64,000 nt of DNA. It comes from Streptomyces syringium (GTDB lineage: Bacteria > Actinomycetota > Actinomycetes > Streptomycetales > Streptomycetaceae). The translations under genes and the position numbers were made by a program. Under the pieces are notes generated by a model. That model had not been told where the DNA came from. It saw only the letters and a list, made by a program, of their open reading frames with translations, and searched no databases. Each line of letters starts with the position of its first letter. Position 1 is the stretch's first letter. The DNA lies in NCBI RefSeq assembly GCF_017876625.1, contig NZ_JAGIOH010000001.1:992001-1056000 (forward strand). Direction: 5' to 3'. Below, in pieces: positions 14,578-42,432 of this stretch.

Positions 14578-17500
14578 GTGAAGGTTCTCCATGTGCTGGT
14601 CGGCGCTGAGTTAGGCCTGCTGGGCCAGGACATCGCCGATTATCTTGTGGATGCCGGCCACTTCGTTTATGCGCTGGACAGTGATCCGTCGGTCGGATCC
14701 GGCGTGTGGCGTGAGCGTTTCACCCACAACGCGAGCGTCATCGGGGACGACGTGTTGGCGACTCGGCACATCGACTACGAATTAGCCCCGGCAGGCGCCA
14801 CGGGCCGCTCCTCCGCCCCCGTTCTGGCGCTTGAACTCCAGGCGGCCGAGGGCGAGTCGGCATTCAGCTGCTTCCTGCAGACGCCCGATCGCGAGGCCCT
14901 CCTGTGCAGCAGCACTGACGCAGGACACCGGCCCGGCAGCGCCACCGGCCCCTCGGCGGCCGACCTTCGCGCCGGGCTCCTGGACACCTGCGTCGACGCG
15001 CTGATTCGCCTCTCCCGCGAAGGCCACGAGTCCCTCGCATTCCACTCCCGACGGGACCGCCCCCATGGCCTTTCCGAGCTGATCGGGTGGGAATCCACTG
15101 CCGCCGCACTTTCCGAGCGCTCCCGTTCCGCGGACGAACGCGAGGACCGCTTCGACATCGCGGACCTGATCGGCGCCGATCATCCGGCCCCTTCCGCCGA
15201 CGTCTTCGAGTACCGGCTGGACAGGCACACCCAGCCGCTCACCGCCGAACAGCTGGAATGGCTCTGCATCTTTCTCCAGATGCTGCTCAATTCCCGCAAG
15301 GCAGGCCTCTACAGCTACGACGCGATCACCCCCGGCGGCCGGGTGCGCAAATATGTGGAGACAAGCCGGAGCCTTCGGTCCGCCGATCTTAAAAGGCAGC
15401 TCGACGACCCGCTCCACAATGCGCACACCAATCCTTTCCATGATTTCGACGCCGTTTACCAACACGCCCGGGACCCACGGGTCGCCGTGGAGTTCGACGT
15501 CGCCGAGGACACGGCCGATGCCACCGCCGGCCGCGCGCCCGTACTGAGCCTGCGCTACCGCGGCGACAGCGGTTCCCTGGACATCGTCACCATCGGCCGG
15601 CTCCCCTTCCTGAGCGTCCTGCGCGAGCACTTGGACAGCTTCTTCGCCGGGCTCCACCGATTCGCCGAGGGTGCCGCCACCCTGGGGGAGCTCCTGGCGC
15701 TTCCTCCGGAGCTGCACCGCCGTTTCGATGCCGAGCTGCGGCGGACGCGCGCACCGTTCCGCGACGACCAGCCCATCCACCGCCTGATCGAGGAACAGGC
15801 CGCGCGGTACCCGGAGCACACGGCCGTCGTCCACGAGGGACGTTCCCTCACCTACCGGCAGTTCAACGAAGCGGCCAACCGATTCGCCCGGCTGCTGCGC
15901 GAGCGCTACGCGCCCGCGCCGGGCGATCTGATCGCGCTGTATCTGGACCGTACGGAGAATCTGCTGATCGCCGCGGTGGCGGTCCTCAAACTCGGCTGTG
16001 GCTATGTGCCGTTGGACTTGAACTCTCCCGTCAACCGCACCGCCGGAATCCTGGCCGGCGGCAGGATCGTCCTGGCCGTCAGCGACACCGCCCACACCCC
16101 ACGGCTCGACGGCGTCTCCGGCGCCCTGCCCGTGATCGCCATGGACTCCGACGCGCTCGCCGACGAGTGGGCCGGATACCCGGGCGACAACCTCGACGCG
16201 CCCGTGGCCGGCGACGACATCGCGTACGTCATCTATACCTCGGGCACGACCGGCAAGCCGAAGGGCGTGGCCGTCGAGCACAAGAGCTATGTGAACATCG
16301 CCACCGACATCGGCCGTTGCGTCGACTTCCGGCCGGGCGAGCGGATGCTGGCGGTGACCACCATCGCCTTCGACATCTCCACGCTCGAGGTCTTCATGCC
16401 GCTGCTGCACGGCGGGACCGTGGTCATGGCGGGCCGCTCCGATCTGCTCGACGTCGGCAAGCTGATCGGCCTGATCGAGCAGGGTGTGTCCATCGTCCAG
16501 GCCACGCCCTCGCTGTGGCACTTGATCACCCAGAGCCTGGACGGAAAGCGGCTGCCCATTCGCGCGCTGTGCGGCGGCGAGGCCCTCTCCCCCCAGCTCG
16601 CACCCGTGCTGGTCGCGTCCGTCGACACCTGCTGGAACGTCTACGGGCCCACGGAGACCACGGTGTGGTCCACCCGCCGCCTTCTGTCGCCCGAGTCCCC
16701 CGAGCCGCTGATCGGCACGCCCGTCGCCAACACCCGCTGCTATGTCCTCGACGAGGACATGCAGCCCCTGCCCCCGGGCGTCGTGGGTGAATTGTTCATC
16801 GGCGGCAGCGGGCTGGCCCGCGGCTACCTGGACGAGCCGGAGCTGACGGCGAACGCGTTCCTCCCGCCGCCGCCCGCGGTGAGCGGCGGCGGACCGGCCG
16901 TACCGGAGGAGCGGATCTACCGCACCGGCGACCTGGTCCGTGCGCTGCCGAGCGGTGACCTGGAGTTCATCGGCCGTAACGACTTCCAGGTGAAGCTGCG
17001 TGGGCACCGTATCGAGCTCGGCGAGATCGAGAGTGTGCTCAGCGCCCACTCCGCCGTGGACCAGAGCCTCGTCGTCGTCCACCAGCCGGACGCGTCCTTG
17101 GGCGACGAAGCCCGCTCCCTGGTCGGCTACTACGTCTCCGAAGCGCCGGTCGACAGCGAGGAGCTGCGGGAACACCTGGCCTCAGCACTCCCGGAGTACA
17201 TGATCCCGGCCGTGCTGATCCACCTGGAGAGCATGCCGCTGAACGTCAACGGCAAGGCCGACCGAGGCGCCCTCCCGGACCCCGCGCAGTTCCTGACCCG
17301 GGGCTACGTCGCGCCGGCGACCGAACTGGAAACGCGGCTGTGCGACATCTGGGACCAGGTGCTCGGCAGCGCTGCCAAGGGCGGCCACCGCATCGGCGTC
17401 ACCGACGACTTCTTCGGCTTCGGTGGCAACAGCATCCTGGGCATCAAGCTCGTCAACAGGATCAACAGCGAGCTCGGGTCCGACATCCGGATCCGTGACG

Positions 17501-20500
17501 TCTTCCGCGAGAAGACGATCCGGCGCCTGGCGCCCTTGGTCGAGGCCAGCCTCGGTGACTTCGCCTACCGCGACTTCGTGCTCGACGGCATCGACACCGA
17601 TCGCCTCCACGAGCCGTTCCCCCTCACCAATGTGCAGCAGACCTACTACCTGGGCCGGTTCAACAGCTTCGAGCTGAGCAGCGTGTCGACCCACGTCTAC
17701 AGCGAGTTCCGCTACAGCCACATCGACCACGAGCGGCTCGAGGCGGCGTACAACCGGCTCATCGAGCGGCACCTCGCGCTGCGCACGGTCTTCACCGACG
17801 GACAGCAGCGCTTCCTGCCCGAGGTGCCCCACTACCGCATCGCCTTCCACGAGCTGAGGGACCAGGAAGAGCTGGAACGGCTCCGGGGTACGTACTCCCA
17901 CAAGCTGTACGACCCCGAGCAGTACCCGCTCTTCGACATCGTGCTCAGCCGCCTCGACGGCGTCCACCGGCTGCACATCAGCTTCGACGCGCTCATCATC
18001 GACATGGGCAGCTTCGACATCCTCTTCGACGAGTGGGCGCGGCTCTACGCCGACCCGCAAGCCTGCCTGCCCGACCTCGGCATCAGCTACCGCGACTACG
18101 TGCTCCAGTACGAGCGGGTCCGTGAGAGCCCGCTCCTGCTCCAGGCCCAGCAGTACTGGCAGGACAAGGCCGACGACTACCACCTCGATCTGAGGCTGCC
18201 GCTCAAGGAGCGCCCCTCGGCCGTCGGCAGTCCCGTCTTCCGGCGCAAGAGCCGGGTGATTCCCGCCGCGGTGTGGGACGAGCTGGCCGCCAAGTGCAGC
18301 CGGCACGGCATCAGCCCGACCGCGCTCGTCGTGGAGCTCTTCAGCCGGGTGCTCAGCCAGTGGAGCGGCCAGGACCGGCTGTGCATGAACCTCACGCTCT
18401 TCAACCGGCTGCCGCTGCACCCCGACATCAACGGCGTCATCGGCGACTTCACGGTCCTGGAGCTCTTCGACTACCAGGCCGAGCGCGACCTGGGCATCGC
18501 CGACAAGCTCCGCCGGGTGCACGGCGATCTGCTCCAGGACGTCGACAACAACCTCTTCGACGGAGTGGACTTCCAGCGCCTGCTGAAGCTGCGCCACTCC
18601 ATACCGGTCGGCAAGATCGTGGCCCCGGTCGTCCTGACCAGCACGCTCGGCGCCAAGGGCAATGCGAGCATGTTCGAACTGCCCCTGGACGACACCTACC
18701 AGGGCGTCGACTACTCGATCTCGCAGACCCCGCAGGTGTGGCTGGACAACAAGGCGTACGAGACCGACGAGGGTTTCGTCGCCGAGTGGGACTACGTCGA
18801 GCAGCTCTTCGACACCGCCGTCATCGACGCGATGCACGACGGCTACTGCCGGCTCATCGAGCAGCTCGCCGCACTGGACTGGGAGTCCGCCCCGTTCCCG
18901 TCGCTCCCCGTGCCGGCCGAGGACCTCGCGCTAATCGAGGCGGCCAACGCGCACGACCGGCCGGCGGACGAGCGCACCCTCTTCGGCCTCTACGAGAGCA
19001 GGCTGAACGAGGCCGGCCGCTCCCGGGCCACCGCCGTCATCGACGCGGCCGCGGGTACCTCCTTCACCTACGAGCGGCTCCATCACGACTCCGTGCGGCT
19101 CGCGGGAGCGCTCCTGGCCCCCGGCACGCTGGGCGAGGAGCGTGAGACCGTCGCCGTCCTGGCGGAGAAGGGCTACCTCCAGGCGGTCACCACACTCGCC
19201 GTGATGAAGGCGGGCTCGGCGTACGTGCCGATGAACGTGGAATGGCCCGGCGCGCGCATCGGCGAAGTGCTCGAATCGGCGGGCACGCACGCGTTGTTGG
19301 TGTCGCGTGGTCAGTTCGCGCGTGCGGACGTACAGGCCCTGGGTTCGGTGTGCCGCCTGCTGGTCATCGAGGACCTCCTGGAGCAGGGGGCCGCGACGGA
19401 TGAGTCCGCGCTGCCGGTGGTGGGCCCGGACGATGTCGCCTACGTCATCTTCACCTCAGGGTCCACCGGCCGGCCCAAGGGCGTGACCATCAGCCACCGC
19501 GGCGCGGTCAACACCCTCCTCGCCGTCAACGAACGCTTCCACATCACACCCCAAGACCGCATCCTGGCCCTGTCCGAACTCAGCTTCGACCTCTCCGTCT
19601 ACGACCTCTTCGGCACCCTCGCCGCCGGCGCCACCATCGTCTTCCCCGCACAGGAAGAAACCAAGAACCCCGCCCACTGGGCCCACCTCGTCGACCACCA
19701 CCACATCACTGTCTGGAACAGCGTCCCCCAGCTCGCCGGACTCCTCATCGACGAAGGCGGACACCTCCAGTCACTGAGGGCGTTCCTCCTCAGCGGCGAC
19801 TGGATCCCCACCAGCCTCCCCGACCGGATCCGCGAGCACATCCCCCACGCCACCGTCATGAGCCTGGGCGGCGCCACCGAAGGCAGCATCTGGTCCATCT
19901 GGTACGAGATCGACCACGTCGACCCCGCCTGGAACAGCATCCCCTACGGCGTCGCCATGCCCAACCAACGCATGTACGTCCTCAACCCCCAAGGCGAACA
20001 CTGCCCCACCGGCGTCATCGGCGAAATCCACATCGGCGGCACCGGCGTCGCCCTCGGCTACTGGAACGACGAAAAACTCACCACCGAGCGCTACACCGAA
20101 CACCCCACCCTCGGCCGCCTCTACCACACAGGCGACCTCGGACGCTGGACCCCCGAAGGCCACATCGAATTCATCGGACGCAACGACTTCCAAGTCAAAC
20201 TCAACGGCTACCGCGTCGAACTCGGCGAAATAGCCGCCAAGCTGACGCGGTTGCCGGGGGTCGACCGTGCCGTGGCCAGGATCCAGCAGGGTGACAAGCA
20301 CGACCGGCTGGTCGCCTACCTGGTTCCCGCCGCCGACTACGCTCCCCTGGCCGGTGCCGGTGAGCCGGGTCTCGACAAGCAGACGTTCCTCCTGAGCGGG
20401 CACGGCGTGCTGGAGACGGCCGCGCCCGGGTTCCCGCTGGAGCCTCGCCCCGACCCGGCCGCGTACGCCCAGGCCAAGAGCTACCGGCAGTTCCTGGACG

Positions 20501-21831: not shown

Positions 21832-24800
21832 ACCCCGAGCTGGAACTGCTGAACGACCTCCGGTCCGCCCGCGTTCTCATCTGGAACAAGGGCGACGACC
21901 GGCTCGGCTTCTCCTTCCCCCAGGACACCGGCTTCCCCCCGGAGCTGAAGGACCGGGTGAAGGAGCACAAGGAGCGACTGCTCCACGTCCTGGAGCTGAC
22001 CGGCATCGACTCCCAGGAGCGCGCCCGGCAGACCACGCACTACAAGCTGCCGGACGGGGCGCACGACAGATCGATCCGGGCCATCCAGAAGGGGATGTAC
22101 CTGCAGAGCAGGATCGACGAGCTCGGCTACACGTACACCATCCCCCTGTTCGTCGAGCTGACCGGCGCCGACGCGGAGTCGGCCGAGCGGGCGGTCCGCG
22201 CGCTGCTCGCGGCGGAGCCGATCCTGCGGATGCGCGTCCACGAGGACCTGTCGTACGAGCTGGTGCCGGCGGACGCGTACGAGATCTCCCGCACCCGGGT
22301 CTCGACCGGTGAGCTGGACGCGCTGCGGGACGACCGGGCCCGTACGGTCTTCCCGCTCGCCGACGGACATCTGATCCGCCCCGAGGTCATCGAGTCGACC
22401 GACGCCGCCTCGGTGACGGTGTCCCTGACGCACCACCACATGCTCTCGGACGCCTACTCGATGGAACTGATCGCCGCCCGGCTGGCCTCGATCCACGACG
22501 CCTTGGCGCGCGGCACCGACCCGGCCGGCGCAGACGGGGCCACCCCCGCCCTGAACTATTTCGACCTGGTGGCGCAGCAGCGGATCGAGCTGGCCCGGCC
22601 GGAGTACACGGCTGCCCGCGACAGGCTCGCCGACCGGTTGGCCGCCGCCGGGAAGCTGCGTCTGCAGCGCAACCCCGCACGCGGGGCCGACAACCGGGCC
22701 GGCACCCTCGACTACACGCTCGCGCCGGAGACCCACCGGGCGCTGTCCGAGCTGGCCGGGCAGCACGGGCTGAGCCTGTACGCGCTGCTGTTCACCGGCC
22801 TGTACCAGACGCTGAGCAGCTTCGCCGGCGGCCAGCACGACTTCGCCGTCGGCATCACCGTCGCGAACCGGCCGCCCGCCTTCCAGTCCGCCGTCGGCCC
22901 GTTCATCAACACGCTGCCGCTGCTGCCGGAGTTCCGGGGCGGCGACCGCTTCCTGGACAACGCGCGCCGGGTCAACGAGGCGGTCATCGATCTCAACCAG
23001 CACCACCAGCTCAATGTGGACATGCTGACCGGCGCCCTGCCGGGCGGGGCCGCGGACCTGGCCGATGTGCTCCAGGTCCTCTTCACCATGCACAACTTCG
23101 CCCCGGTGGAGCAGGCCGCCACCGCCGTCGGCCACCGCGTGCTGCCCTACCGCGATCTCGCGGAGAAGTTCGGCATCTCGGTCATCGCCAAGGAGGACGG
23201 CGACCGGGTCTCCTTCACGGTCACCTACGCCGAGGCGCGCTACGAGCGCGATTACGTGCGGGCGCTCTTCGAGGCGTATCTCACCGTGTTGCGCTCGGCG
23301 GCGGCCGCACCCCACGAGGTCACCGACCGCCTGGACCTGGTGGATCCCGAGGGGCTGCGGCAGATCGCGGAGTGGAACCGCACCGCATGGGACCACGGCA
23401 CCGTGCGGACCGCGGTCGAGATGTTCGAGCGCCAGGTGCGGCGGACCCCGGACGCCCCGGCCGTGATCTACCGCGACCGGCTGCTGAGCTACCGCGAGCT
23501 CAACGAGAGCGCCAACCGGCTGGCCCACCTGCTCACCGAGCGGCACGGGGTCCGTGCCGGCAGTCTGGTCTGTCTGCTGATGGACCGCAGTGAGCACATG
23601 CTGATCGCGGTGCTGGGCGTCATGAAGGCCGGCGGCGCCTATGTGCCCGTCGACCCCGGCTCACCGCACGAGCGGATCCGGTTCATCCTCTCCGACACCG
23701 GCAGCCCGCTGCTGCTCACCGACGAGCGCAACGCGGCCGGCTGCCACGACGCCGCACTGCCGGTGGCCGTGCTGTCCGTCGACGGCGCCGCCGACGAGCT
23801 GGCCGCACAGCCCTCCGGCGACCCGGGGCTGCCGCTCACCGGTGACGATCTCGCGTACGTCATCTACACGTCCGGCACCACCGGGAAGCCCAAGGGCGTG
23901 CTGTGCGAGCACGGCGGCCTGGTCAACCGCATCCAGTGGATGAACCGGGCGTTCCCGCTCGACCCCTCGGACCGGGTGCTGCAGAAGACGTCGTACGTCT
24001 TCGACGTGTCGGTGTGGGAGCTGTTGTGGGCCAACTGGTTCGGTGCGGCCGTCGTCTTCGCCGAGCCCGAGGACCACAAGGACCCGTATGCGCTGATGGA
24101 GATCATCGAGCGCGAACACGTCAGTGTCGTGCACTTCGTGCCCTCGATGTTCAGCGCCTTCCTGGAGACGGTGGAGACATCCGCCGAACCGGCCCGGCAG
24201 GGGCTGGCGAGCCTGCGCTACATCTTCTGCAGCGGCGAGGAGCTCAAGCTCGCGCAGGTGCGCGCCACGCACGCGCTGCTGCCGGAGGCGGCCCTGCACA
24301 ATCTGTACGGCCCGACCGAGGCGTCCATCGACGTCCTGCACCACCCGTGCACCGACCCGGCGATCGACACCGTGCTCATCGGCACACCGATCGACAACAC
24401 ACAGGCGTACGTGCTCAACGCGGCCCGCAGGCCGCTGCCCGCCCAGGCGATCGGTGAACTGTATTTGGGCGGCGCCGGTCTGGCGCGCGGCTACCTCAAC
24501 CGGCCCGAGCTCTCCGCCGAACGCTTCGTCGAGAACCCCTTCGGTGACGGGCGCCTGTACCGCACGGGCGACCTCGTACGGCGGCTGCCCGACGGGTCCA
24601 TCGCGTTCATCGGCCGCGACGACTTCCAGGTCAAGATCCGCGGCTACCGCGTCGAGCTCGGCGAGATCGAGGCGGCCCTGGCCGGATACCCCGGCGTCAA
24701 ACAGGGCATCGCCCTGGTCCAGCAGCCCGACCCGCAGCGGCCCGAGCACAAGTATCTGGTGGGCTACTACGTCGCCGACCGCCCGTTGGACGAGACCGCC

Positions 24801-33800: not shown

Positions 33801-36800
33801 TACGTCGCCGAAGCGGCCCTGGACGAGGAGGCGCTCCAGGCCCATCTGGCCGGTCTGCTGCCGGAGTACATGCGACCCGGTGCCCTGGTGCACCTGACCG
33901 AGCTGCCACTGTCGTACAGCGGCAAACTCGACACGAAGGCTCTTCCGCGGCCGCGCCGCCGGCGTGCCGACGCGTCCGTGGCCCCGGCCGGGGAGACGGA
34001 GCTGACGCTGGCCCGGCTGTGGCAGGACGTGCTGGGCCTGGACCGGGTGGGCGTGCACGACCGCTTCTTCGAGGTGGGCGGCAACTCCATTCTGCTGACC
34101 AAGCTGCACGCCCGGCTGCCGGAGGAGATCCGGGGGGCGGTCAGCCTGACCGAGATGTTCGCCCACCCGACCATCGCCTCCCTCGCCGCCCACGTCGGCG
34201 GGGTCCGTGACGAGGCCCGGCCGCGCCGCGAGCCGGAGGTGCGCGACGCCCCGGGGACCGGCGGCCGGGACATCGCGATCATCGGTATGGCCGGGCGTTT
34301 CCCGGACGCCGACACGCTGGAGGAGTACTGGCGGAACCTGACCGCCGGCCATGAGTCCGTCGTCCACTACAGCCGGGAGGAGCTGCTCGCGGCCGGCGTG
34401 CCCGAGGCGGAGCTCGACCGGCCCGGATACGTACGGGCCCAGAGCGGCCTACGGGATATCAAGGGCTTCGACGCGGCGTTCTTCGGCTACTCCCGCCGGG
34501 AGGCCGAGACGATGGACCCCCAGCACCGGGTGTTCCTGGAGTGCGCCTGGCACGCGCTGGAGGACGCGCACTGCGACCCGTACGCCTTCGGCGGCGACAT
34601 CGGGCTGTACGCGGGCGCGGGGCAGAACGACTACGCCACCGGTCACGTCCTGCCCCGCCTCGGCGATGCCGACCTGGCCACCCGCTACCAGGCGATGATC
34701 AACAACCAGGCGAACTTCCTGTCGACCAAGGTCGCCTACAAGCTCGACCTGACCGGGCCCGCGGTGACCGTGCAGACCGCCTGCTCCACCTCGCTGGTCG
34801 CGGTCCACCAGGCGTGCGTGGCGCTGCTCGCGGGAGACTGCGACATCGCCCTGGCCGGCGGTGTGTCGATCGGCAAGCTGGGCAAGGAGGGCTACCTCCA
34901 CCAGGAGGGCATGGTCTTCTCCCCCGACGGCACCTGCCGGGCCTTCGACGAGGCGGCGCAGGGCACCCTCGAGGGGCAGGGCGTCGGCATCGTGGTGCTC
35001 AAACCGCTCGACCGGGCGCTCGCCGACCAGGACCCCATCCGTGCCGTCATCAAGGCGACGGCCATCAACAACGACGGCCAGAACAAGATCGGTTACACCG
35101 CGCCCAGCCAGGCGCGGCAGGCAGCGGTGATCCGCCGCGCCCATGAGAGGGCCGGCATCGACCCGTCGACGGTCGGCTATGTGGAGGCGCACGGCACGGG
35201 CACCGCGCTCGGCGATCCCATCGAGGTGGCCGCCCTGCGGGAGGCGTTCGGTCCGGACGACGGCACGACCCGGCGCGTCGCGCTGGGCTCGGTGAAGACC
35301 AATATCGGCCATCTCGACGTCGCGTCCGGTATCGCCGGGCTGATCAAGGCCGTGCTCTGCCTGGAGCACCGCACCCTGGTCCCCACCCTCCACCACACCT
35401 CCCCCAACCCACGGCTCGAGCTGGACAAGGGCCCGTTCTACGTCAACACCGCGTGTACACCGTGGACGAGCGAGCACCCGGTGCTGCGTGCCGGCGTCAG
35501 CTCCTTCGGGATCGGCGGCACCAACGCCCACGTCGTCCTGGAGGAGGCACCGGCGTCCGCGCCGCCGGCCCCCGGAGACGAGCCCGTGCGGGCGCGGCAG
35601 TTGCTGACGGTGTCCGCGCCCACCGTGGAAGCGCTCGGGCAGCAGGCGCGGGCCCTGGCCGGTTACCTGGCCGAGCACCCCGGCGTCCCGCTGGAGCGCG
35701 TGGCGTACACCCGGCACACCGCCCGGCACCGCTTCCCGTACAACCGGGTGGTCGTCGGCAGCGGCCGGCAGGAGCTCGTCGACCGTCTGGCGGCCGAGGA
35801 GCGGGAGCCGGTCGCATGGCGCGCGGACCGCCCCGCGGTGTTCCTGTTCCCCGGGCAGGGCGCGCAGTACCAGGGGATGGGGCAGGCGCTGTACGACGCG
35901 GAGCCCGCCTTCCGGGCCCACGTCGACCGCTGTCTGCGGATCCTGCGGCCGCACCTTCCCGAGGGGGCCGACGAAGCCGATCTGCTGGGCCGGACCGCCC
36001 GGGTGGGCGACACCCGGTACACGCAGATCGCCCTGTTCATCGTCGAGTACGCGCTGGCGCGGTGGTTAATGGACCTCGGCGTCCGCCCGGCCGCGATGAT
36101 CGGGCACAGCCTGGGCGAGTACGTGGCCGCCTGTCTGGCGGGCGTGTTCTCGCTGGAGGACGCGATGACGCTGGTCCTGGAGCGGGGCCGGCTGCTGGCG
36201 GGCACCGCGCCGGGGGCGATGCTCGCCGTGCCGCTGCCCGCCGGGCAGGTACTGCCGCGCGCACAGCGGCACGGCCTGGACCTGGCCGTGGTCGACGACG
36301 CCGGCAGCTGTGTGGTCTCCGGTCCGCCCGGGGCTGTCGACGCGCTGGCAGCGCGGCTGTCGGCCGACGGTGTGACGGGCAGGAGGGTCGCCGTGGCGCA
36401 CGCGTTCCACTCGCGGCTGCTCGACCCGGTGCTGGAGGAGTTCACCGCGGTGCTGGGCCGGATCGAGCTGCACAGGCCCACGATCCCGTACCTCTCCAAC
36501 CTGACCGGTGACTGGGCCGACCCCGACCGGGTCCGCACGCCCGAGTACTGGACGGCGCAGCTGCGCGGGACGGTGCAGTTCCACCGCGGGCTGACCACGC
36601 TGTACGGGTCGGAGACCGGCCGGGGCGGCGTGCTCCTCGAAGTGGGGCCCGGCCGGATCCTGAGCCGCCCGGCACGCCGGCACCCGGACCGCGCCGAGCA
36701 CCTGGTGGTGGCGGCCATGCCCCGGGCCGGGCAGGGCGGCGAGGAGCCGGAGGTGGCGCTGACGGCGCTGGGAACGGCATGGGCCGCCGGCGTCGCCGTC

Positions 36801-38012
36801 GACGCGTCGGCGTTCCACGGTCTGACGGCCCGGGACCGGGTGCGGCTGCCCGGTTACGCCTTCGACCGGCAGGAGCACTGGATCGACCGCCCGGGAACGG
36901 CGGCCCCGGCCCGGGCCCAGGCGCCGGCGCGGCTGCCGGAGCCGGTGGCACACGGTGAACAGGACGAGGTGAGCACCGTCGTCGCGGAGGCCTGGCGCGC
37001 GGTCCTGGGCGTCGACGACGTCCGGCCCGACGACGACTTCTTCGCGCAGGGCGGGGACTCGCTGGCAGCGGTGCAGCTCGTGGCGCGGATCCGGGAACGG
37101 GTCGGCGTCCGGGTGGAGTTCATGACGCTGGAGCGGCCCACGCCGCGGGCCCTCGCGTCCCGGCTGGCCGAGCACCTCGACGGCCGGTACACGCCGGAGG
37201 CCGCCGACGGGACGGTGGTCGTCGTCAAGAAGGGCGATCCGCAGTCGCGCCCGCCGCTGGTCCTGGTGCACCCGATCGGCGGTGACGTGTACTTCTACCG
37301 GGAGCTCTCGGCCTGCCTGCCGGACGACCAGGCGGTGTACGCGCTCCGCTCCCCGATGCTCGACGGCAGCGCGGAGTTCACCACGGTCGAAGCCATGGCG
37401 GCCCACTACCTGGAGCAGCTGGAGGACTTCGGCCTCAAGGCCCCGTACCGGCTCGGGGGTTCCTCCTTCGGCGGCATCGTCGCGTACGAGATGGCCCAGC
37501 AGCTCGACGCCCGCGACGGGTACCGGCCGGAGGTGGCCCTCATCGACAGCCCGGCCCGCGGCAATCTGCCCGCCGACATGACCGGCCAGGACATCATCGA
37601 CTATCTGCTCCGCTACGGCCTGGCACGGCTGGACTTCCCCATGGCGGAGCTCGAAGCCCTGGACACGGTCGAGGGGAAGATCGGCTACATCGCGGAGAAG
37701 GCACGCGGCACGGAGTTCGAGGACATGCTCTCCGCCGACTTCCTGCCCCGCTACATCCACGCCTGGCAGCGGCACAGCCAGGCCATGCACGGGTACGTCC
37801 CGCGCCCGTACTCCGGCGACCTCGTGTTCTTCTCGCACCAGGAGGAGATCCCGCAGTTCCCGGCGGGACAGGCCCCGCGCTGGCGGGAGCTGGCGCGCGG
37901 CGGCTGGACGCAGGTGCCGGTGACCGGCAACCACCTGAGCATGAACGGCATGCCCCATGTGGCGACGATCGGCGCCCACTTCGCGAAGACCCAGGGAGAA
38001 CACAGTGAGTGA
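21828..38012 (+). CDS. NRPS-PKS 2: C-A(Ser)-T-E-Cy-A(Cys)-T-E-C-A(Gly)-T-KS-AT-ACP-TE, althiomycin AlmB-type
   Basis: A 5394-residue hybrid. Residues 1-55 are a TubC-like docking domain. C1 has HHMLSDA (H203-A209, Gly replaced by Ala). A(Ser) carries D-V-W-H-F-S-L-I-D-K (FDVSVW at 725); T Ser1079; epimerase HHLITDTVSW (H1270). Cy2 has DLIILD (D1714, D1719); A(Cys) D-L-Y-N-L-S-L-I-W-K (2247); T Ser2594; second epimerase HHLIVDTVSW (H2788). C HHAILDG (H3226); A(Gly) D-I-L-Q-L-G-V-I-W-K (3749); T Ser4087. KS has Cys4319 (TACSTS), EAHGTGT and KTNIGH; the AT has GHSLGEY (Ser4761) and HAFHS, which indicates malonyl; ACP Ser5078. The TE has GSSFGG (Ser5213) and a late His in TGNHLSMNG. No oxidase in the second Cys module and no ketoreductase. 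Codon 4747 is TTA. Confidence 0.93.
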   Translation: MNPELELLNDLRSARVLIWNKGDDRLGFSFPQDTGFPPELKDRVKEHKERLLHVLELTGIDSQERARQTTHYKLPDGAHDRSIRAIQKGMYLQSRIDELGYTYTIPLFVELTGADAESAERAVRALLAAEPILRMRVHEDLSYELVPADAYEISRTRVSTGELDALRDDRARTVFPLADGHLIRPEVIESTDAASVTVSLTHHHMLSDAYSMELIAARLASIHDALARGTDPAGADGATPALNYFDLVAQQRIELARPEYTAARDRLADRLAAAGKLRLQRNPARGADNRAGTLDYTLAPETHRALSELAGQHGLSLYALLFTGLYQTLSSFAGGQHDFAVGITVANRPPAFQSAVGPFINTLPLLPEFRGGDRFLDNARRVNEAVIDLNQHHQLNVDMLTGALPGGAADLADVLQVLFTMHNFAPVEQAATAVGHRVLPYRDLAEKFGISVIAKEDGDRVSFTVTYAEARYERDYVRALFEAYLTVLRSAAAAPHEVTDRLDLVDPEGLRQIAEWNRTAWDHGTVRTAVEMFERQVRRTPDAPAVIYRDRLLSYRELNESANRLAHLLTERHGVRAGSLVCLLMDRSEHMLIAVLGVMKAGGAYVPVDPGSPHERIRFILSDTGSPLLLTDERNAAGCHDAALPVAVLSVDGAADELAAQPSGDPGLPLTGDDLAYVIYTSGTTGKPKGVLCEHGGLVNRIQWMNRAFPLDPSDRVLQKTSYVFDVSVWELLWANWFGAAVVFAEPEDHKDPYALMEIIEREHVSVVHFVPSMFSAFLETVETSAEPARQGLASLRYIFCSGEELKLAQVRATHALLPEAALHNLYGPTEASIDVLHHPCTDPAIDTVLIGTPIDNTQAYVLNAARRPLPAQAIGELYLGGAGLARGYLNRPELSAERFVENPFGDGRLYRTGDLVRRLPDGSIAFIGRDDFQVKIRGYRVELGEIEAALAGYPGVKQGIALVQQPDPQRPEHKYLVGYYVADRPLDETAMAGALRATLPSYMVPSALVHLSSLPVTVNGKLDRKALPDPGPSDTGQEHIAPRTALQERLRDLWAECLGLRPDDVGIRDDATRLGMDSIVAIRLASRLRRQLDLAISVRDVFSLPTIEQFADFVESRQAAAAQPRAEVIAEQGTLAGELELLPIQSWFFGQEFTRPEHWNQAFVIRTPELSLPRLESALRALVARHDAFRLRYRGTTQSYEPGAPFPGFNVLDVRGLPGGEGTPEFAEALHRTLTGWQRGFDLEHGPVYALGYLHGYADHTSRVFFALHHLITDTVSWRILAEDLRALYEGQQLGKKGTSFRQWTGAVSAYAHERPEQRAYWEELLSDFRPDAQGRPGSAAAHTEQFTLSEQHTRDLLGPAHRAYHTHVDDLLLTALGRALEAVGGGRTHHVMLEGHGREDIAPAFDVTGTMGWFTTLYPVRLPLGDDIGESVRSVKESLRAVPDKGIGFGPLVGYRDRALPHVWFNYLGRLDGEQTGAGDWQLVMEDGGEAMPPCNTSDAVLSVFAYVTEDRLQVRLDSRLAAEDTGALARALEAALAEVVGHCTGRTAPRYTPSDFREVRGEADLTALPAGIGADPGGWFDMTEIQKAYLVGRLGNYEIGNVANHVYNEYVYRELDADRLAAAVRRLVAECDVLRTVFSYDRLQQRVLDAAEVPDFELVVHDFAAHDYDESKLTAVRERLSHRLYDPERFPLFSLEVSRFKDRCVLHLSWDLIILDVQSRLAVLRRLDDLYRGAERRAELPRASFKDYQDYTGLLKNSQWYADDRAYWQDRLDGMPLRCTLPFKESPDAVDHPRFDEHTLHVAPDVWDRFKEQARKHGVSTSSVLLSLFGSVISYFSGAREFPLTLTLFNRHPVVEGIDSLLGNFTSTVLFHYVDEGADVTSLTRRTHDTLWEDISHALYSGVEVQRDLSRLHGLDTTKAVSPIVFTGVMGNETRDFERAAYLDDSEFVEERHWSAQTSQAWIDLQAIEVDSGFMSKWLYVEQLFDRAFIEHLNRLYCLLIERLADGDWEAGLPRDRYLPDTDRALVATANAFDGETCEQTMFGLYEERCRTEGREAATAVIDAGTGRTHTYGELIEESRTLALRLRTALGDASGERLVGVLAEKGHSQVLATVAIMKGGLGYLPLHVDWPAGRIEEILTQAAVRTVLVSRGQFARADVQALGSVCRLLVIEDLLEQGAATDESALPVVGPDDVAYVIFTSGSTGRPKGVTISHRGAVNTLLAVNERFHITPQDRILALSELSFDLSVYDLFGTLAAGATIVFPAQEETKNPAHWAHLVDHHHITVWNSVPQLAGLLIDEGGHLQSLRAFLLSGDWIPTSLPDRIREHIPHATVMSLGGATEGSIWSIWYEIDHVDPAWNSIPYGVAMPNQRMYVLNPQGEHCPTGVIGEIHIGGTGVALGYWNDEKLTTERYTEHPTLGRLYHTGDLGRWTPEGHIEFIGRNDFQVKLNGYRVELGEIESALSQDPRISQSVVLIKEYDTAAGRRRQALVGYYVSGTALDPAPLLERLSASLPAYMVPEALVHLPELPLSPNGKLDRTALPDPGTAVAAEHVPPRSERERQLRDAWADVLGVPPERLGITVDLMHLGMDSIVAIRLVSRLRKELGLRVSVRDVFAHRTIERFHDRVVATAGSGAGPAVRTEQGALEGDAPLLPVQSWFFAQDFPRPGHWNQSFLVRTPALDLPRLEESLRALVDHHDAFRLRYEPGAPGGPRQYYDTAAGFPEVRVLDVRDLPGGEGTAEFDTAVDRVLTEWQSGFDLASGPTYAFGFLHGYADGSNRVFFALHHLIVDTVSWRVLAEDLHTLYEGGRLGDKGTSYRQWTGTVAAHAERHANERGYWEGLLADMDEAPVLRQDTGAPVETGISLDAERTALLLGACQRAYGTRVEEFLLTAFGQALTELTGRSVNHLMVEGHGREELDAGADVSRTLGWFATLYPVRLEACGEPADALKSVKESVRAVPAKGIGFGPLMGYARELPQVCFNYLGRIDAEEHGDWQTVDEPSGEWLHEANLLPYTVSAAGMVVGGRLRFTLLSRLPRQDAERLARAFEERLAALVELTAHSPRTYLTSSDIDGLLPQEHLDRLQADGELDGVFAAGSLQQGFIHHALSQGDIDDAYRVQAVWDYHGAVDPELLRQAWGQAQQALSALRLRFDWQYEMVQVIDRRSRLTWEFVDLSDHPDPDAAFEELLERDRGIPYDLGTSGLFRVYLVQRGPEHFTCVLNTHHAILDGWSSPLLLRNVHACYLALREGEVAVLPEENYAGIQRHLHRHARDHETFWRSYVADAGQGCDLGGLLTAGARHIDLGTYRHIHHQEQRSLSLRPELLAALRSVARDHGVTSNAVLQYAWHKVLSVYGHCDTTVVGTVLAGRDLPVDGIDTSVGLYLSTVPLIARHDTGADSLIEEIQRLQDDIHEVGRRSTVDLAALQPGGRRLFDSLFINESYPAAEDAEHERLLRPRFRFRYQKRDYPLVVSVAEKDDEVVLTLDYAGELFAPATVERLLTGMESVLGHVARAPESSPADLEPAGADGIEAQRQWNDSGVAEPAEPVIHRAFEAQAARTPDAPAVIHDGRTLSYAQVNAAANRLARVARQQVPTAPEEPVLLLLDRGADTLIGLLAVLKAGAAYVPLDPGYPDERTARIVEGCGARLLLTHARHRERVQACHPALTVIAVDDPRTEAACAAESGDDLDVAVGGDALAYILYTSGTTGQPKGVMVEHLAFTSTVAAMRRRHFPGAGALHTYSLTNYVFDIFGLEYGLTLLGGGSVVMGDHLFEELDCAAYDFVQMTPSLLEMKLQALRGLSGTRLLVGGERLERHLLHAALERCPRVVNVYGPTETTIWSTSREYVADAADSPMVTIGRPLPNEQAHVLDARLRPLPVGAVGELYLSGGALARGYFGDPGLTAERFVESPREGHGRLYRTGDLARRLDGGEIEFVGRVDTQVKLRGHRIELGEVESALAAHPGVRQSAVIVGTLDGGTDRSAAAQTLIGYYVAEAALDEEALQAHLAGLLPEYMRPGALVHLTELPLSYSGKLDTKALPRPRRRRADASVAPAGETELTLARLWQDVLGLDRVGVHDRFFEVGGNSILLTKLHARLPEEIRGAVSLTEMFAHPTIASLAAHVGGVRDEARPRREPEVRDAPGTGGRDIAIIGMAGRFPDADTLEEYWRNLTAGHESVVHYSREELLAAGVPEAELDRPGYVRAQSGLRDIKGFDAAFFGYSRREAETMDPQHRVFLECAWHALEDAHCDPYAFGGDIGLYAGAGQNDYATGHVLPRLGDADLATRYQAMINNQANFLSTKVAYKLDLTGPAVTVQTACSTSLVAVHQACVALLAGDCDIALAGGVSIGKLGKEGYLHQEGMVFSPDGTCRAFDEAAQGTLEGQGVGIVVLKPLDRALADQDPIRAVIKATAINNDGQNKIGYTAPSQARQAAVIRRAHERAGIDPSTVGYVEAHGTGTALGDPIEVAALREAFGPDDGTTRRVALGSVKTNIGHLDVASGIAGLIKAVLCLEHRTLVPTLHHTSPNPRLELDKGPFYVNTACTPWTSEHPVLRAGVSSFGIGGTNAHVVLEEAPASAPPAPGDEPVRARQLLTVSAPTVEALGQQARALAGYLAEHPGVPLERVAYTRHTARHRFPYNRVVVGSGRQELVDRLAAEEREPVAWRADRPAVFLFPGQGAQYQGMGQALYDAEPAFRAHVDRCLRILRPHLPEGADEADLLGRTARVGDTRYTQIALFIVEYALARWLMDLGVRPAAMIGHSLGEYVAACLAGVFSLEDAMTLVLERGRLLAGTAPGAMLAVPLPAGQVLPRAQRHGLDLAVVDDAGSCVVSGPPGAVDALAARLSADGVTGRRVAVAHAFHSRLLDPVLEEFTAVLGRIELHRPTIPYLSNLTGDWADPDRVRTPEYWTAQLRGTVQFHRGLTTLYGSETGRGGVLLEVGPGRILSRPARRHPDRAEHLVVAAMPRAGQGGEEPEVALTALGTAWAAGVAVDASAFHGLTARDRVRLPGYAFDRQEHWIDRPGTAAPARAQAPARLPEPVAHGEQDEVSTVVAEAWRAVLGVDDVRPDDDFFAQGGDSLAAVQLVARIRERVGVRVEFMTLERPTPRALASRLAEHLDGRYTPEAADGTVVVVKKGDPQSRPPLVLVHPIGGDVYFYRELSACLPDDQAVYALRSPMLDGSAEFTTVEAMAAHYLEQLEDFGLKAPYRLGGSSFGGIVAYEMAQQLDARDGYRPEVALIDSPARGNLPADMTGQDIIDYLLRYGLARLDFPMAELEALDTVEGKIGYIAEKARGTEFEDMLSADFLPRYIHAWQRHSQAMHGYVPRPYSGDLVFFSHQEEIPQFPAGQAPRWRELARGGWTQVPVTGNHLSMNGMPHVATIGAHFAKTQGEHSE
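28276..29209 (+). repeat. 934-bp duplicated A(Cys) core, copy 2
   Basis: Second copy of the segment at 19295-20228, inside the Cys adenylation domain of the second megasynthase. It is constant from the LVSRGQFARAD region to the start of the GYRVELGEI motif. Immediately outside, the protein continues differently (ESALSQDP here, AAKLTRLP in copy 1). Confidence 0.95.
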
Positions 38013-38889
38013 GAAGACGGCCGGCGCGATGTGCGACGTCCCCGGCGGCAGGATCTGGTACGAGATACTCAACGCCGATGCCCCCGGCACCCCGGTGGTG
38101 ACCGTCCACGGCGGCCCCGGCACCCCGCACGACTATCTGCGTCCGCTGGCGGACCTGCTGCCGGACCATCCCGTCGTCGTGTACGACCAGCTGGGCTGCG
38201 GCCGCTCCGCGGGCCCCACGGACCCCGGCCTGTGGCGCCTGGAGCGCTTCGTCGACGAACTCGACGCACTGCTGGGCGCCCTGGGCCTGGAGCGTTTCCA
38301 TCTGCTCGCCCACTCCTTCGGCACGATGATCGCCTGTGACTTCGTCCTGCGCGGCGGTCCGCGCCGCCCCGACCGGCTGGTCCTCCTCTCGCCGGTGCTG
38401 AACATCCGCAAGTACGAGGACGACATGCGGCAGCTGCTCTTCAGGCTCCCGGCGGAAACGGCCCAGGCACTCAGCGACGGCCTGCGGACGGAGCGGTACG
38501 ACACACCCGCCTTCGCGGAGGCGGCGATCGTCTTCGCCGAGCGGCACATGTGCCGCACCGACTGGCCGGACGTGCTGATGGACGCCACCCTCGGCACCGC
38601 GGCGCACGTGCGGGACGCCATGTGGGGCCGCACGGAGTTCCAGCTGACGGGCGATCTGCGGACGTACGCGCCTGCCGGGCAGCTGGCCGGGCTGGGGCCC
38701 GGCACCCTGCTCGTCGTCGGGGAGCACGACTTCGTGCCGCCGCGGGCCTGCCAGGCGTACGCGCGGGCCATCCCCGGCGCGGAGGCCGTGATCATCCCGG
38801 ACGCGTCGCACATGCCGCATCTGGAGGAGCCGAAGCTGTTCGCCGGGGAACTCCTGGCCCGCATCGGTGACTTCGCAGGTCAAAAATGA
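38005..38889 (+). CDS. Alpha/beta hydrolase, proline iminopeptidase-like
   Basis: Hydrolase of about 294 residues of the tricorn F1/proline iminopeptidase family. The oxyanion loop HGGPG is at 35-39, the nucleophile is S104 in LLAHSFGTM, an acid candidate lies in VVGEHDFVPP and the His in DASHMPHLE near the C-terminus. GTG at 38005 is used because GGGAG lies seven bases upstream; it overlaps the end of the megasynthase gene by eight bases, so it is translationally coupled to it. In an althiomycin-type pathway it could act as an editing thioesterase, help close the pyrrolinone ring, or remove an N-terminal protecting group. None of these roles is shown by the sequence. Confidence 0.82.
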   Translation: MSEKTAGAMCDVPGGRIWYEILNADAPGTPVVTVHGGPGTPHDYLRPLADLLPDHPVVVYDQLGCGRSAGPTDPGLWRLERFVDELDALLGALGLERFHLLAHSFGTMIACDFVLRGGPRRPDRLVLLSPVLNIRKYEDDMRQLLFRLPAETAQALSDGLRTERYDTPAFAEAAIVFAERHMCRTDWPDVLMDATLGTAAHVRDAMWGRTEFQLTGDLRTYAPAGQLAGLGPGTLLVVGEHDFVPPRACQAYARAIPGAEAVIIPDASHMPHLEEPKLFAGELLARIGDFAGQK

Positions 38890-39142: not shown

Positions 39143-40342
39143 ATGAACAAACACAGATTTCTGCCTGCCCTGCTCGTCATCACCCTCATCGGCACGATCA
39201 TGGAACTCGACATGTCCGTGCCGAGCTTCCCGGACATCGCCGAGGCCCTCGACACCTCCGGGTCCTCGGTACAGCTGACGATCACGTACAACTTCTTCGG
39301 CTACTGCCTGGGCGCCCTGGCCTACGGCCCCTTGTCGGACCGGTTCGGCCGGCGCAAGGTCATGCTGATCGGCAACACGATCATGCTCATCGGCGCACTG
39401 GGCTGCGCGGTGGCACCGAGCATCGAGTTCCTGCTCGCGTCCCGGCTCGTCCAGGGCGTGGGGGCGAGCACGTCGGTGGTCCTGGTCTTCGTCATCATCG
39501 GCGATGTCTACCGGGGCAACCAACTGTTCAAGATGTTCGGGCTCACCAATGCCGCGATGTCCGCCTTCATGACGGCGGCACCGGCGCTGGGCGGTCTGAT
39601 CAACCGGGCGATCGGCTGGCGCGGCAACTACGCGACGGTATTCGCCATCACCCTGGCGTCGCTGCTGCTGATGATGTTCTTCCTGCCCGAGACGAAGGGC
39701 GAGCTGGAGAAGGTCAGCGTCAAGAAGGTCGCCGGCGACTACCGCAAGCTCCTGTCGAGCAAGGAATTCATCGCGGCGTCGCTCGTCCCCAGCCTGCTGT
39801 TCGCCGCGTACATGGTCTTCATCGCGGCCAGCTCCTTCCTCTACACGGACACCTTCGGCCTGTCCACCGTGGAGTTCGCCGGTCATCTGCTGATCGTCGT
39901 GGCCTCCTTCGCCGTGGCGAGCCTCCTCGCCTCGAAGGTCGTCACCCTGCTGGGCGGTCCCGAGCGCACCGTGGTCTGCAGTATCGCCGTCACGGTCGCC
40001 GGCATCGCCCTGTTCCTGGCGTTCGGTGAGGGCGCCTGGGCGACCACCGGCCCGATCGCCGTCTTCTGCATCGGCTTCGCCACGGTCTACCCGGTCGTCT
40101 TCGGGCGCTCCATGGCCGTCTTCCCCGAGCTCCAGGGCGCGGCTTCCTCGCTCACCATGAGCGGACGGGCGCTGCTCGTCACGCTGCTCACGGGCATCGC
40201 CAGCAGCCTGTTCACCGGCGACTCCATCGTGACCGCCGGGGTGATGGCCGCCGCCGTGGCCGTCGCCGCGTCCCTGGCCTTCCTCAAGCCCAAGCCGGCC
40301 CCGGACGGGGTGGCGGCCGAAGCGGTCGCCGAAACCGGCTGA
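39143..40342 (+). CDS. MFS drug exporter (Bcr/CflA type, DHA1)
   Basis: A 399-residue integral membrane protein with about 12 hydrophobic helices. The major-facilitator motif A is visible between helices 2 and 3 (GPLSDRFGRRKVML), and the first helix contains the MELDMSVPSFPDIAEAL stretch typical of Bcr/CflA multidrug/H+ antiporters. The C-terminus is a short charged tail. In this context it is the likely exporter and part of self-resistance for the althiomycin-type product. It is preceded by a leader peptide and hairpin that suggest induction by a ribosome-stalling antibiotic. Next come two hairpins and the N-oxygenase gene. Confidence 0.9.
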   Translation: MNKHRFLPALLVITLIGTIMELDMSVPSFPDIAEALDTSGSSVQLTITYNFFGYCLGALAYGPLSDRFGRRKVMLIGNTIMLIGALGCAVAPSIEFLLASRLVQGVGASTSVVLVFVIIGDVYRGNQLFKMFGLTNAAMSAFMTAAPALGGLINRAIGWRGNYATVFAITLASLLLMMFFLPETKGELEKVSVKKVAGDYRKLLSSKEFIAASLVPSLLFAAYMVFIAASSFLYTDTFGLSTVEFAGHLLIVVASFAVASLLASKVVTLLGGPERTVVCSIAVTVAGIALFLAFGEGAWATTGPIAVFCIGFATVYPVVFGRSMAVFPELQGAASSLTMSGRALLVTLLTGIASSLFTGDSIVTAGVMAAAVAVAASLAFLKPKPAPDGVAAEAVAETG

Positions 40343-40395
40343 ACCGTCCGCCGCACCTTCCCCAACCCTTTCGTTCCTTTCCCCTTCCGTCAGCA

Positions 40396-40420: not shown

Positions 40421-40440
40421 CACGGACGCCCACGCACCGA

Positions 40441-40473: not shown

Positions 40474-40487
40474 GGAAAGAGACCGTC

Positions 40488-41462
40488 ATGAGCGTCATCG
40501 GCCAGGAGAACACCGAAGCCGACCGGAAGCTGCCCAGCCTGACCTCGGAGTACGTCGCCAGGTGGGAATCGCGTGCTTCCGTCCGCACCCGCCCGCGCAA
40601 GACCATCGATTTCACGCAGGAGGGCTTCTTCTTCCCCGAGGACAAGCAGCCGCTGCTGCTGGCCGACGAGGTCGCCTCGCTGGACCGGGCGGGCAAGGAC
40701 GAGATCCTTGTGCAGTCCTTCTACAAGTATCTGCACGACATCGTGAACCTGGAGATCAAGGAAATCGTCTCGGCCTGCTCGAAGATCCTCTACGCGGATC
40801 TTCCGGTCGAGTTCTCCGCCGAGACGAAGCTCAACACCCACTCGGTGATCATCGACGAGTACTACCACGTCTACATCGCCCAGGACATGATCCTCCAGCT
40901 GCGGAACCACTACCCGCACCTGAAGACGATCGACCACCCGATATCGGACTCGCAGCGCGCGGTCGTCGAGATCAAGAAGAAGCTCGACCCCAAGTACCAC
41001 GACATCTTCGAAATCCTCGCCAACTGCTGCTTCGAGACCACGCTCGTGCGGGAACTCGTCGAATTCTTCAACAGCCCCGGCGTCCACCCGTCGATCAAGT
41101 ACTACGTCAACGACCACATGAACGACGAGTCCCGGCACTACGCGTTCTTCTACGACCTGATGACGTATCTGTGGGCGGAGATCCCCGAGGACTACCGCGA
41201 GGCGATCGGCACGCACCTGGCCGAGTTCACCACGCTCTATCTCTCCGTGGAGTCGGAGAAGCTCTTCAACATCGAGCTGCTCGACTCCGTCGTCGGTGAC
41301 CGCCAGCAGGCGCGGAAGTCCGTCGAGGCCCTCTACGCGGGCTTCGAGATCACCCCGGACGTGCCGATCGTCAAGAACGTCCTGCGGGCTCTGGGCAACG
41401 CGGGAATGCTCGGCCACCCCGCCGTCCGCGACAGCTTCGCCCGGATCGGCTGGACCGTCTGA
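40488..41462 (+). CDS. AurF-type diiron N-oxygenase (oxime-forming candidate)
   Basis: Protein of about 324 residues of the p-aminobenzoate N-oxygenase (AurF) family. All seven ligands expected for the carboxylate-bridged diiron centre align by spacing: E89, E124-x-x-H127 (DEYYHVYIAQ), E183 (CFETT), H210, and E214-x-x-H217 (NDESRHYAFF). These match the AurF series E101, E136, H139, E196, H223, E227, H230. It would oxidise an amine, most plausibly the free amine of the N-terminal glycine, to the oxime found in althiomycin. ATG at 40488 has GGAAAGAG six bases upstream. It is followed 52 bases later by the methyltransferase gene. The role is inferred from family and cluster context. Confidence 0.88.
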   Translation: MSVIGQENTEADRKLPSLTSEYVARWESRASVRTRPRKTIDFTQEGFFFPEDKQPLLLADEVASLDRAGKDEILVQSFYKYLHDIVNLEIKEIVSACSKILYADLPVEFSAETKLNTHSVIIDEYYHVYIAQDMILQLRNHYPHLKTIDHPISDSQRAVVEIKKKLDPKYHDIFEILANCCFETTLVRELVEFFNSPGVHPSIKYYVNDHMNDESRHYAFFYDLMTYLWAEIPEDYREAIGTHLAEFTTLYLSVESEKLFNIELLDSVVGDRQQARKSVEALYAGFEITPDVPIVKNVLRALGNAGMLGHPAVRDSFARIGWTV

Positions 41463-41514
41463 CTCCCGCCCCGTCCCTGTCCCACCCGGCCAAGGAACAC
41501 TTGAGGAAATACCG

Positions 41515-42432
41515 ATGACATCCACGATTTCGCACCACACCGGCACCCGGATCGCCGACGACGCCAGGACCAAGGAGATCGCGGCGGAGATCGAGCAGCG
41601 GCTCCGCCGGGCGGACCAGCTCGTGCTGCCGCTCGACGAGACCCTGGACATCCTCGACCAGCTCCAGCAGTTCGAGCTCGGCCGTTTCCTGCTGCACAAC
41701 CGGGGCCTCAACGGCTACTGGACCTCGTACATCTTCCGCAACACCCCGGCCGGCCCCACCACGCCGATGGAGCACTGGCTGCTCAACAACTCCCTGTTGT
41801 GCCAGGCCCGCGAGCGCTTCCACCGCTTCAAGGAGGAGATCGCCGGCTCCGTCACCGAAGGGGCGACCCTGGCGTCCGTGCCCTGCGGGGTGATGGACGA
41901 CCTGCTGCAGCAGGACTACCGCGGCGTCGAGAAGTTCAGGCTCGTCGGCATCGACATCGACGAGGAGTCCATCGGCTACGCCCGGCAGAACGCGGCGGAG
42001 CACGGGCTGTCCGAGCACACCGCCTTCGAGGTGCGCGACGCCTGGAAGCTCGGTGTGGACGGCGAGTTCGATCTGATCGTCAGCAACGGTCTGAACATGT
42101 ACGAGTCGGACCCGCAGCGGCTGACCGATCTGTACCGCAGCTTCCACCAGGCACTGCGCCCCGGCGGCCGGCTGCTGCTCAGCTTCCTCACCCCGCCGCC
42201 CCCGCCGCCGTGGGTGGCGCCCGAGCACGCCGCGGCCTGGGAGAAGTACGACATCCCCGAGGCGGACCTGCGCCGGGAGCTGTCCATCATGGGCGACATC
42301 GTCCAGGTGACCTATCTGAACTTCTCCAGCGAGGACGAGGTGCGCGGCCAGCTCGAAGCCGCCGGCTTCACCGTGCACGCGGTCCGCTACAACGACCACG
42401 GCGTCCTGCCCATCATCACCGCGGTCAAGTGA
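41515..42432 (+). CDS. SAM-dependent methyltransferase (pyrrolinone O-methylation candidate)
   Basis: Methyltransferase of about 305 residues. A helical N-terminal region (residues 1-110) precedes the Rossmann fold, with motif I as SVPCGVMDDLL (about 121-131), the acidic strand LVGIDIDEE, FDLIVSNGLNMYE and then PGGRLLLSFLTPPPP. The GxGxG loop is altered to PCGVMDD. ATG at 41515 has TTGAGGAAA ten bases upstream. In an althiomycin-type pathway one O-methyltransferase is needed for the 4-methoxy-pyrrolinone, and this gene, inside the core operon, fits best. The methyltransferase at 10.2 kb belongs to the other operon. Confidence 0.85.
   Translation: MTSTISHHTGTRIADDARTKEIAAEIEQRLRRADQLVLPLDETLDILDQLQQFELGRFLLHNRGLNGYWTSYIFRNTPAGPTTPMEHWLLNNSLLCQARERFHRFKEEIAGSVTEGATLASVPCGVMDDLLQQDYRGVEKFRLVGIDIDEESIGYARQNAAEHGLSEHTAFEVRDAWKLGVDGEFDLIVSNGLNMYESDPQRLTDLYRSFHQALRPGGRLLLSFLTPPPPPPWVAPEHAAAWEKYDIPEADLRRELSIMGDIVQVTYLNFSSEDEVRGQLEAAGFTVHAVRYNDHGVLPIITAVK

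Follow-up and report, generated by a model that had tools for sequence, protein, structure and literature searches.

The 64,000-nucleotide stretch of the Streptomyces syringium genome analysed here (NCBI RefSeq assembly GCF_017876625.1, contig NZ_JAGIOH010000001.1, positions 992,001 to 1,056,000; hereafter the window) carries at positions 14578-42432 a complete, unbroken and probably functional althiomycin-type biosynthetic cluster with the gene order almA-almB-almF-almE-almD-almC. Directly after almC lies a gene for an ABC-F protein (42592-44187), a diverged duplicate of the housekeeping ABC-F; these genes are all on the forward strand. It is very likely that the intact cluster directs the synthesis of althiomycin or a very close analogue, with the duplicated ABC-F likely shielding the producer's ribosomes. 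An alm cluster in an actinomycete is ordinary and already known, and the fresh point is the pattern formed by the neighbouring ABC-F gene. We read this pattern, with a probability of roughly 0.6, as the independent capture, at least four times, of an ABC-F gene by alm-type clusters for self-resistance through ribosome protection; in Streptomyces and Myxococcus this would have occurred by duplication of the housekeeping gene. The genomic pattern suggests that the recruited ABC-F would guard the peptidyl transferase centre, reported to be inhibited by althiomycin (PMC9147431). No paper linking althiomycin with an ABC-F was found in a search of one open-licence library.

A preliminary description of the same DNA had proposed an althiomycin-type assembly line, and this assignment is upheld because the domain order, the adenylation (A) pocket residues, the six alm/alb gene families and the gene order of Streptomyces althioticus JCM 4344 agree. 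Based on its open reading frame (ORF), Pfam matches and orthologues, almA (14578-21831, 2417 aa) encodes a two-module nonribosomal peptide synthetase (NRPS) for glycine loading and cysteine; almB (21828-38012, 5394 aa) encodes a hybrid of NRPS and polyketide synthase with serine, cysteine, glycine and malonyl modules and a thioesterase (TE). Both are open end to end. Pfam and NCBIfam place five A domains, condensation-family domains, six carrier proteins, a ketosynthase (KS), an acyltransferase (AT) and the TE on the two proteins. AlmA comprises A1 (15775-17274, DIL..., read as Gly), the heterocyclisation domain Cy1 (17617-18873), A2 (19066-20277, DLY..., read as Cys) and, inserted in A2, the thiazoline oxidase Ox (20335-21417). 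AlmB continues with a condensation (C) domain and A3 (22074-24893, DVW..., read as Ser), the epimerisation domain E1 (25239-26468), Cy2 and A4 (26574-29459, read as Cys), E2 (29790-31037, ends approximate), a second C domain with A5 (31125-33518, read as Gly), and then the KS, AT, acyl carrier protein and start of the TE (34266-37649). A motif scan found two Cy motifs (DxxxxD), two E motifs (HHLxxDxxSW), two C motifs (HHMLSDA, HHAILDG), KS TACSTS, and AT GHSLG and HAFH, so the two epimerases of the preliminary description are present. Its single oxidase is genuinely present, though hard to detect: Ox escaped a Pfam scan of the whole protein at E <= 0.001, and the excised segment gives PF00881 at 25.5 bits (cut-off 23.5), McbC at E 0.0034 and 33 invariant columns across seven homologues.

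The module order Gly, Cys, Ser, Cys, Gly, malonyl likewise stands. At the residues that we take to form the pocket code, the A domains agree at key sites with those of Myxococcus xanthus in five of five modules and with Serratia in the four modules seen. The Cys domains of Streptomyces nigrescens and Streptomyces endophytica have DLW, not DLY. The AT is presumably malonyl-specific, as read from general knowledge and the HAFH motif only. The corresponding modules have been assigned Gly, Cys, Ser, Cys and Gly in the Serratia and Myxococcus work (PMC3445576). AlmF (38005-38889, 294 aa) is a proline iminopeptidase-family hydrolase (TIGR01250, 207 bits vs a cut-off of 167.65). AlmE (39143-40342) is a major facilitator superfamily (MFS) exporter of the Alb1/AlmE family according to Pfam, NCBIfam and orthology. 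AlmD (40488-41462, 324 aa) is the predicted AurF-type diiron N-oxygenase, confirmed by Pfam PF11583 (35.1 vs a cut-off of 29.6), ExxH motifs and orthology, and AlmC (41515-42432, 305 aa) is the O-methyltransferase, found by Pfam as an S-adenosylmethionine methyltransferase and orthologous to AlmC/Alb3. The starts of almF (38005), almD (40488) and almC (41515) were reset by comparison with orthologues; the published lengths of Alb2/AlmD (318/317) and Alb3/AlmC (303/302) are consistent with the revised 324 and 305 aa. A second, distant AurF-type protein (23% identity) is encoded elsewhere in the genome (G000:C1:6837197-6837871).

General NRPS logic provides the frame for a predicted route, whose chemistry, with export by AlmE, is carried over from the Serratia and Myxococcus work. 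AlmA would load glycine, the nitrogen of which AlmD would oxidise to the oxime, and Cy1 and Ox would convert the first cysteine to a thiazole. AlmB would then add and epimerise serine, cyclise the second cysteine to a thiazoline, and add glycine and malonate. O-methylation would fall to AlmC and closure of the methoxypyrrolinone to the TE, AlmF or both, and AlmE would export the product. In Serratia, the homologous cluster has been reported to produce althiomycin on the basis of knock-out and mass spectrometry, and Alb1 to confer resistance (PMC3445576).

Relatives of the cluster were collected by scanning 84,980 species genomes for AlmD, which gave 21 loci onto which the window genes were mapped by tblastn. 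AlmD is rare in the family (two of 394 genomes, including the window's own). The relatedness to the almA/almB and alb loci claimed in the preliminary description holds, with families 44-61% identical to M. xanthus or Serratia where compared (for AlmF, M. xanthus only). The order B-F-E-D-C-ABC-F is common to Streptomyces morookaense, S. nigrescens, S. endophytica, S. althioticus JCM 4344 and a further genome of the same genus (G339). Identity to S. althioticus JCM 4344 (L007, BMSW01000008.1), where the view excludes almA and the first half of almB, is 71% for the C-terminal part of AlmB, 71% for AlmF, 76% for AlmE, 80% for AlmD, 76% for AlmC and 84% for the ABC-F. In the Saccharopolyspora and Nocardiopsis loci the ABC-F gene is inverted, and the Nocardiopsis cluster is divided over two contigs. 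M. xanthus strain AM003, used here for comparison (the published cluster is that of DK897), shares the six alm genes and the A-domain pockets, with 55-61% identity for C, D, E and the aligned parts of A and B and 52% between AlmF and the hydrolase after its almB. It differs in that E-D-C comes before A, an arrangement found in six loci (L009, L013, L015, L018, L019, L023), and in that its ABC-F is a separate Myxococcus-type copy after almF on the opposite strand. The Serratia alb cluster (Db10 in print; Serratia bockelmannii compared) shares the Alb1-5 families at 44-58% identity, but has the order E-D-C-A-B and no ABC-F nearby, and its Alb6, a type II thioesterase, has no sequence relationship to AlmF. 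An implied rarity in actinomycetes is not borne out, as althiomycin was first isolated from S. althioticus in 1957 (PMC9147431, PMC3445576). Similar actinomycete clusters have also been reported by genome mining: 100% similarity matches in S. endophytica and 'Actinospica acidiphila' B-2296, and almA, almB and almF homologues in Saccharopolyspora NFXS83. Likewise, the proposed extent of 14578-42432 holds all six alm genes but stops short of the ABC-F gene at 42592-44187, which also belongs to the cluster.

The cluster ABC-F has two nucleotide-binding domains (NBDs), with Walker A motifs GRNGAGKT and GLNGAGKT and two LSGG motifs, and its top match in the PDB is PoxtA. It was ruled out as the housekeeping gene itself by a separate, remote copy in the same genome that is 86% identical to it. 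Each of five other alm-positive actinomycete genomes searched likewise has one cluster-linked and one remote copy. The six Streptomyces-type cluster copies fall into a single clade (support 0.94) when placed in a tree alongside 34 housekeeping copies of Streptomyces type, and a second tree, built with a smaller number of housekeeping copies, recovers the clade with a support of 0.98. Thirteen positions separate cluster from housekeeping copies, six of them in the interdomain linker (bounded here as 236-322). Like the antibiotic resistance (ARE) ABC-Fs of producers (Ard1, LmrC, TlrC/CarA/OleB), it is a soluble two-NBD ABC-F within a cluster for a ribosome-targeting antibiotic, the likeness to TlrC/CarA/OleB resting on a family model name. 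Ard1 and LmrC are described as producer ARE ABC-Fs encoded in such clusters (PMC10201436). It differs from these proteins in its score of 284 against the TlrC/CarA/OleB/SrmB model (cut-off 800), in grouping with the housekeeping ABC-F of the genus and in retaining the linker length of the latter. The window ABC-F is thus a candidate that may work like an ARE ABC-F, and is not classed as a member.

Of the 16 alm or alm-like clusters with the flank in view, 14 have an ABC-F gene no more than 1 kb away from an alm gene. The actinomycetes among the 14 are the window, S. morookaense, S. nigrescens, S. endophytica, S. althioticus, G339, Saccharopolyspora and Nocardiopsis; the other bacteria are M. 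xanthus, Glomeribacter, two Legionella and two Zooshikella, of which the two Legionella clusters are alm-like and not althiomycin lines. Loci with the flank out of view were omitted (the Photorhabdus, Enterobacterales, Leeuwenhoekiella, Burkholderiales, gammaproteobacterial and Legionellaceae metagenome-assembled genome (MAG) loci), and tblastn found no ABC-F above 100 bits in their visible parts. A broken remnant in Streptomyces olivaceoviridis (L024) was also left out of the count. In M. xanthus AM003 the ABC-F gene is encoded on the opposite strand, about 0.3 kb beyond almF, and its product groups with Myxococcus housekeeping ABC-Fs (support 0.999). In Glomeribacter, it comes after almE. 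Legionella gratiana and Legionella santicrucis have it directly between the almB-like gene and almE, all on one strand; both Zooshikella species have it behind a thioesterase gene that comes after almB, again on the same strand. The cluster copies of Saccharopolyspora and Nocardiopsis form a further shared lineage (support 1.0). Between the Streptomyces, Myxococcus, Legionella, Glomeribacter and Zooshikella groups the proteins are 27-39% identical, and the tree indicates at least four origins (Streptomyces, Saccharopolyspora/Nocardiopsis, Myxococcus and Zooshikella), with Legionella and Glomeribacter weakly together (0.88).

Alternatively, the window ABC-F could be a bystander or general translation factor and not a self-resistance gene, which we consider possible, at about one chance in three. 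Several observations favour this and weigh against self-resistance. ABC-F genes are near universal, with this type present in 149 of 150 sampled genomes of the genus (E <= 1e-150), and 31 of the 150, including the window's own genome, have two matches at the same threshold, second copies being unsorted. The linker, or antibiotic resistance domain (ARD), shows no extension and is one residue shorter than that of the housekeeping copy; short ARDs are also reported for PoxtA and OptrA (PMC10201436). The ribosomal-protection-like model NF000355 (cut-off 380) matches the window ABC-F at 388 bits and two other cluster copies at 400 and 392 bits, but three housekeeping copies also pass it (391-399 bits), so that it does not discriminate and was dropped as evidence of resistance. 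There is also no ABC-F near the cluster of Serratia bockelmannii, and none in the approximately 2.6 kb past almB and 0.5 kb before almE visible in Xenorhabdus griffiniae. A bystander would not readily account for the association in 14 of 16 clusters, spread over ABC-F lineages that are 27-39% identical except between the two actinomycete groups. In Myxococcus the extra copy tracks the alm cluster, as almD (E <= 1e-40) occurs in one of 27 genomes and that genome alone has two ABC-Fs (E <= 1e-120), and in Glomeribacter the cluster-linked copy is the only ABC-F found in the 1.7 Mb genome. Repeated recruitment for self-resistance is the preferred reading.

Other alternatives concern the product and the state of the cluster. 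It could make a congener of althiomycin with the same backbone and a different late step, for example through an alpha/beta hydrolase encoded after the ABC-F gene (44184-45059, forward strand), a possible extra member of the cluster. The hydrolase recurs in this position in four of five other Streptomyces-type loci (L004, L005, L006, L047), was not found after the ABC-F gene in S. althioticus (L007) at E <= 1e-8, and congeners are reported in the extract of a producing Streptomyces (PMC9147431). It has no specific family match, however, and domain order, motifs and pockets are as in the characterised clusters, which makes a congener improbable. Somewhat less improbable, though still unlikely, is that this strain carries the cluster in a silent or non-functional form. 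One study reports that 'Actinospica acidiphila' B-2296, whose antiSMASH match is 100%, showed no antibacterial activity in culture (PMC7893419), and open reading frames alone do not show activity, both points speaking against an active cluster here. Conversely, all seven ORFs are open with active-site motifs present, and the same gene order is retained in diverged relatives. An active althiomycin-type cluster is the favoured interpretation.

The two Cys A domains share a near-identical core. The stretch 19295-20228 in A2 equals 28276-29209 in A4 except for one base (933 of 934 identical), with sharp edges: per 90 bases, the sequence ahead of the core is 46-71% identical and that immediately behind it 52%. 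The sequence comparisons indicate that this is gene conversion, recurrent in relatives, and recombination of A-domain cores is described as a known process (PMC9205934). The A2 and A4 cores are also alike within G339 (69-98% per 90 bases, with a 140-base exact match) and S. nigrescens. In a tree of the cores, A2 pairs with A4 inside the window, G339, Saccharopolyspora and Glomeribacter (four of eight genomes), while the flanks group by module in seven of the eight, Glomeribacter pairing A2 with A4 in core and flank alike. Because the core pair of the window groups with the A4 cores of S. nigrescens and S. endophytica, module 4 is suggested to have overwritten module 2. An assembly artefact is quite improbable as the source of this similarity. 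Mis-polishing likewise gives near-perfect identity with sharp edges, but a one-base difference is retained, the contigs of the sister assembly of S. morookaense end at both edges of the converted stretch, as a real repeat would cause, and in three of the four genomes with paired cores the flanks group by module.

The N-terminus of AlmA (14578-15762, forward strand) appears to consist of a Rossmann-like piece and half a condensation domain; a motif scan found no HHxxxDG in AlmA. A PDB profile search gave matches mainly for residues 270-401, and X-domain chains of glycopeptide NRPSs are among the structural matches. Residues 1-123 modelled alone had no Foldseek match at E <= 0.001 and Rossmann-type matches above that, and no family is claimed for them. 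An N-terminus of this type is present in all 18 AlmD-linked NRPS starts (13 loci from the AlmD scan and five actinomycetes), of which 10 went into the profile and hence necessarily match it and eight are independent (L015, L020, L021 and the five actinomycetes); L022, with AlmD and no NRPS in view, is outside this count. Two AlmD-linked synthetases with such an N-terminus seem unlike althiomycin lines. Three AlmA-length homologues were found among the 7991 best candidates scored in a large protein set. A phylum-wide search found it in one of 396 genomes, the window's own, too rare for a co-occurrence test. In searches of plasmids with AlmA, the best places listed were generic NRPS matches at 30-37% identity, and one further record outside these falls in the 60-80% identity band. 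The X domain of glycopeptide NRPSs is a platform for P450s. It shares the condensation-type fold, of which AlmA appears to hold only the second half. The half domain points to a way in which a free-standing N-oxygenase might locate the amino acid on its carrier.

Several loci from the searches differ from the window. L. gratiana (L133, 38001-56000 of G908:C6) and L. santicrucis (L134) have alm-like clusters with the order D-C-A-B-ABC-F-E-F, and the AlmB homologue of L. gratiana is shorter, at 3469 aa; a domain search of it gave two A domains and no AT. A Burkholderiales MAG (L020, 83-9853) has an AlmD-like oxygenase gene followed by a dimodular NRPS with a TE, an AlmA-type N-terminus and a non-Gly first A domain, and then an ATP-grasp gene; this locus is perhaps for another N-oxidised peptide. 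S. olivaceoviridis JCM 4499 (L024) has almE (79%) beside a broken almD, and no other alm gene was found within its 20.5 kb, which makes the locus a possible remnant of a cluster. In S. endophytica HNM0140 (L041), almA and almB contain several frame breaks, including breaks at matching positions of the two Cys A domains; the breaks are perhaps sequencing indels.

Upstream of almA, the ORFs at 11300-14066, the KS at 8672-9904 and the methyltransferase at 10193-11125 were rejected as pathway members, as they lack counterparts in other alm loci; across 18 alm loci or locus pieces none was found at E <= 1e-8, except KS matches within AlmB's own KS. The region 8672-14066, with a lone KS (reverse strand), the methyltransferase (reverse strand) and two condensation-like ORFs, is perhaps another small pathway. 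A BTAD-type regulator and an HTH-NACHT protein are encoded further upstream (5046-8622), and their counterparts (71-73% identity) lie downstream of the ABC-F gene in S. morookaense (L004, 13770-17329). On this comparison, the surroundings of the alm cluster are rearranged between the window and S. morookaense.

An alm cluster in Streptomyces is a known antibiotic pathway in the kind of organism where the compound was discovered, and its interest lies in the ABC-F pattern. If the reading of repeated capture is true, an ordinary ribosome factor became an antibiotic-resistance factor by a repeated and visible route. Althiomycin resistance has been assigned to an MFS pump (PMC3445576), to which a dedicated ABC-F would add a second layer. 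It would also make althiomycin one of the peptidyl transferase inhibitors that are sensitive to ABC-F proteins, and the paired housekeeping and cluster ABC-Fs of Streptomyces and Myxococcus would be natural before-and-after pairs for the gain of drug specificity.

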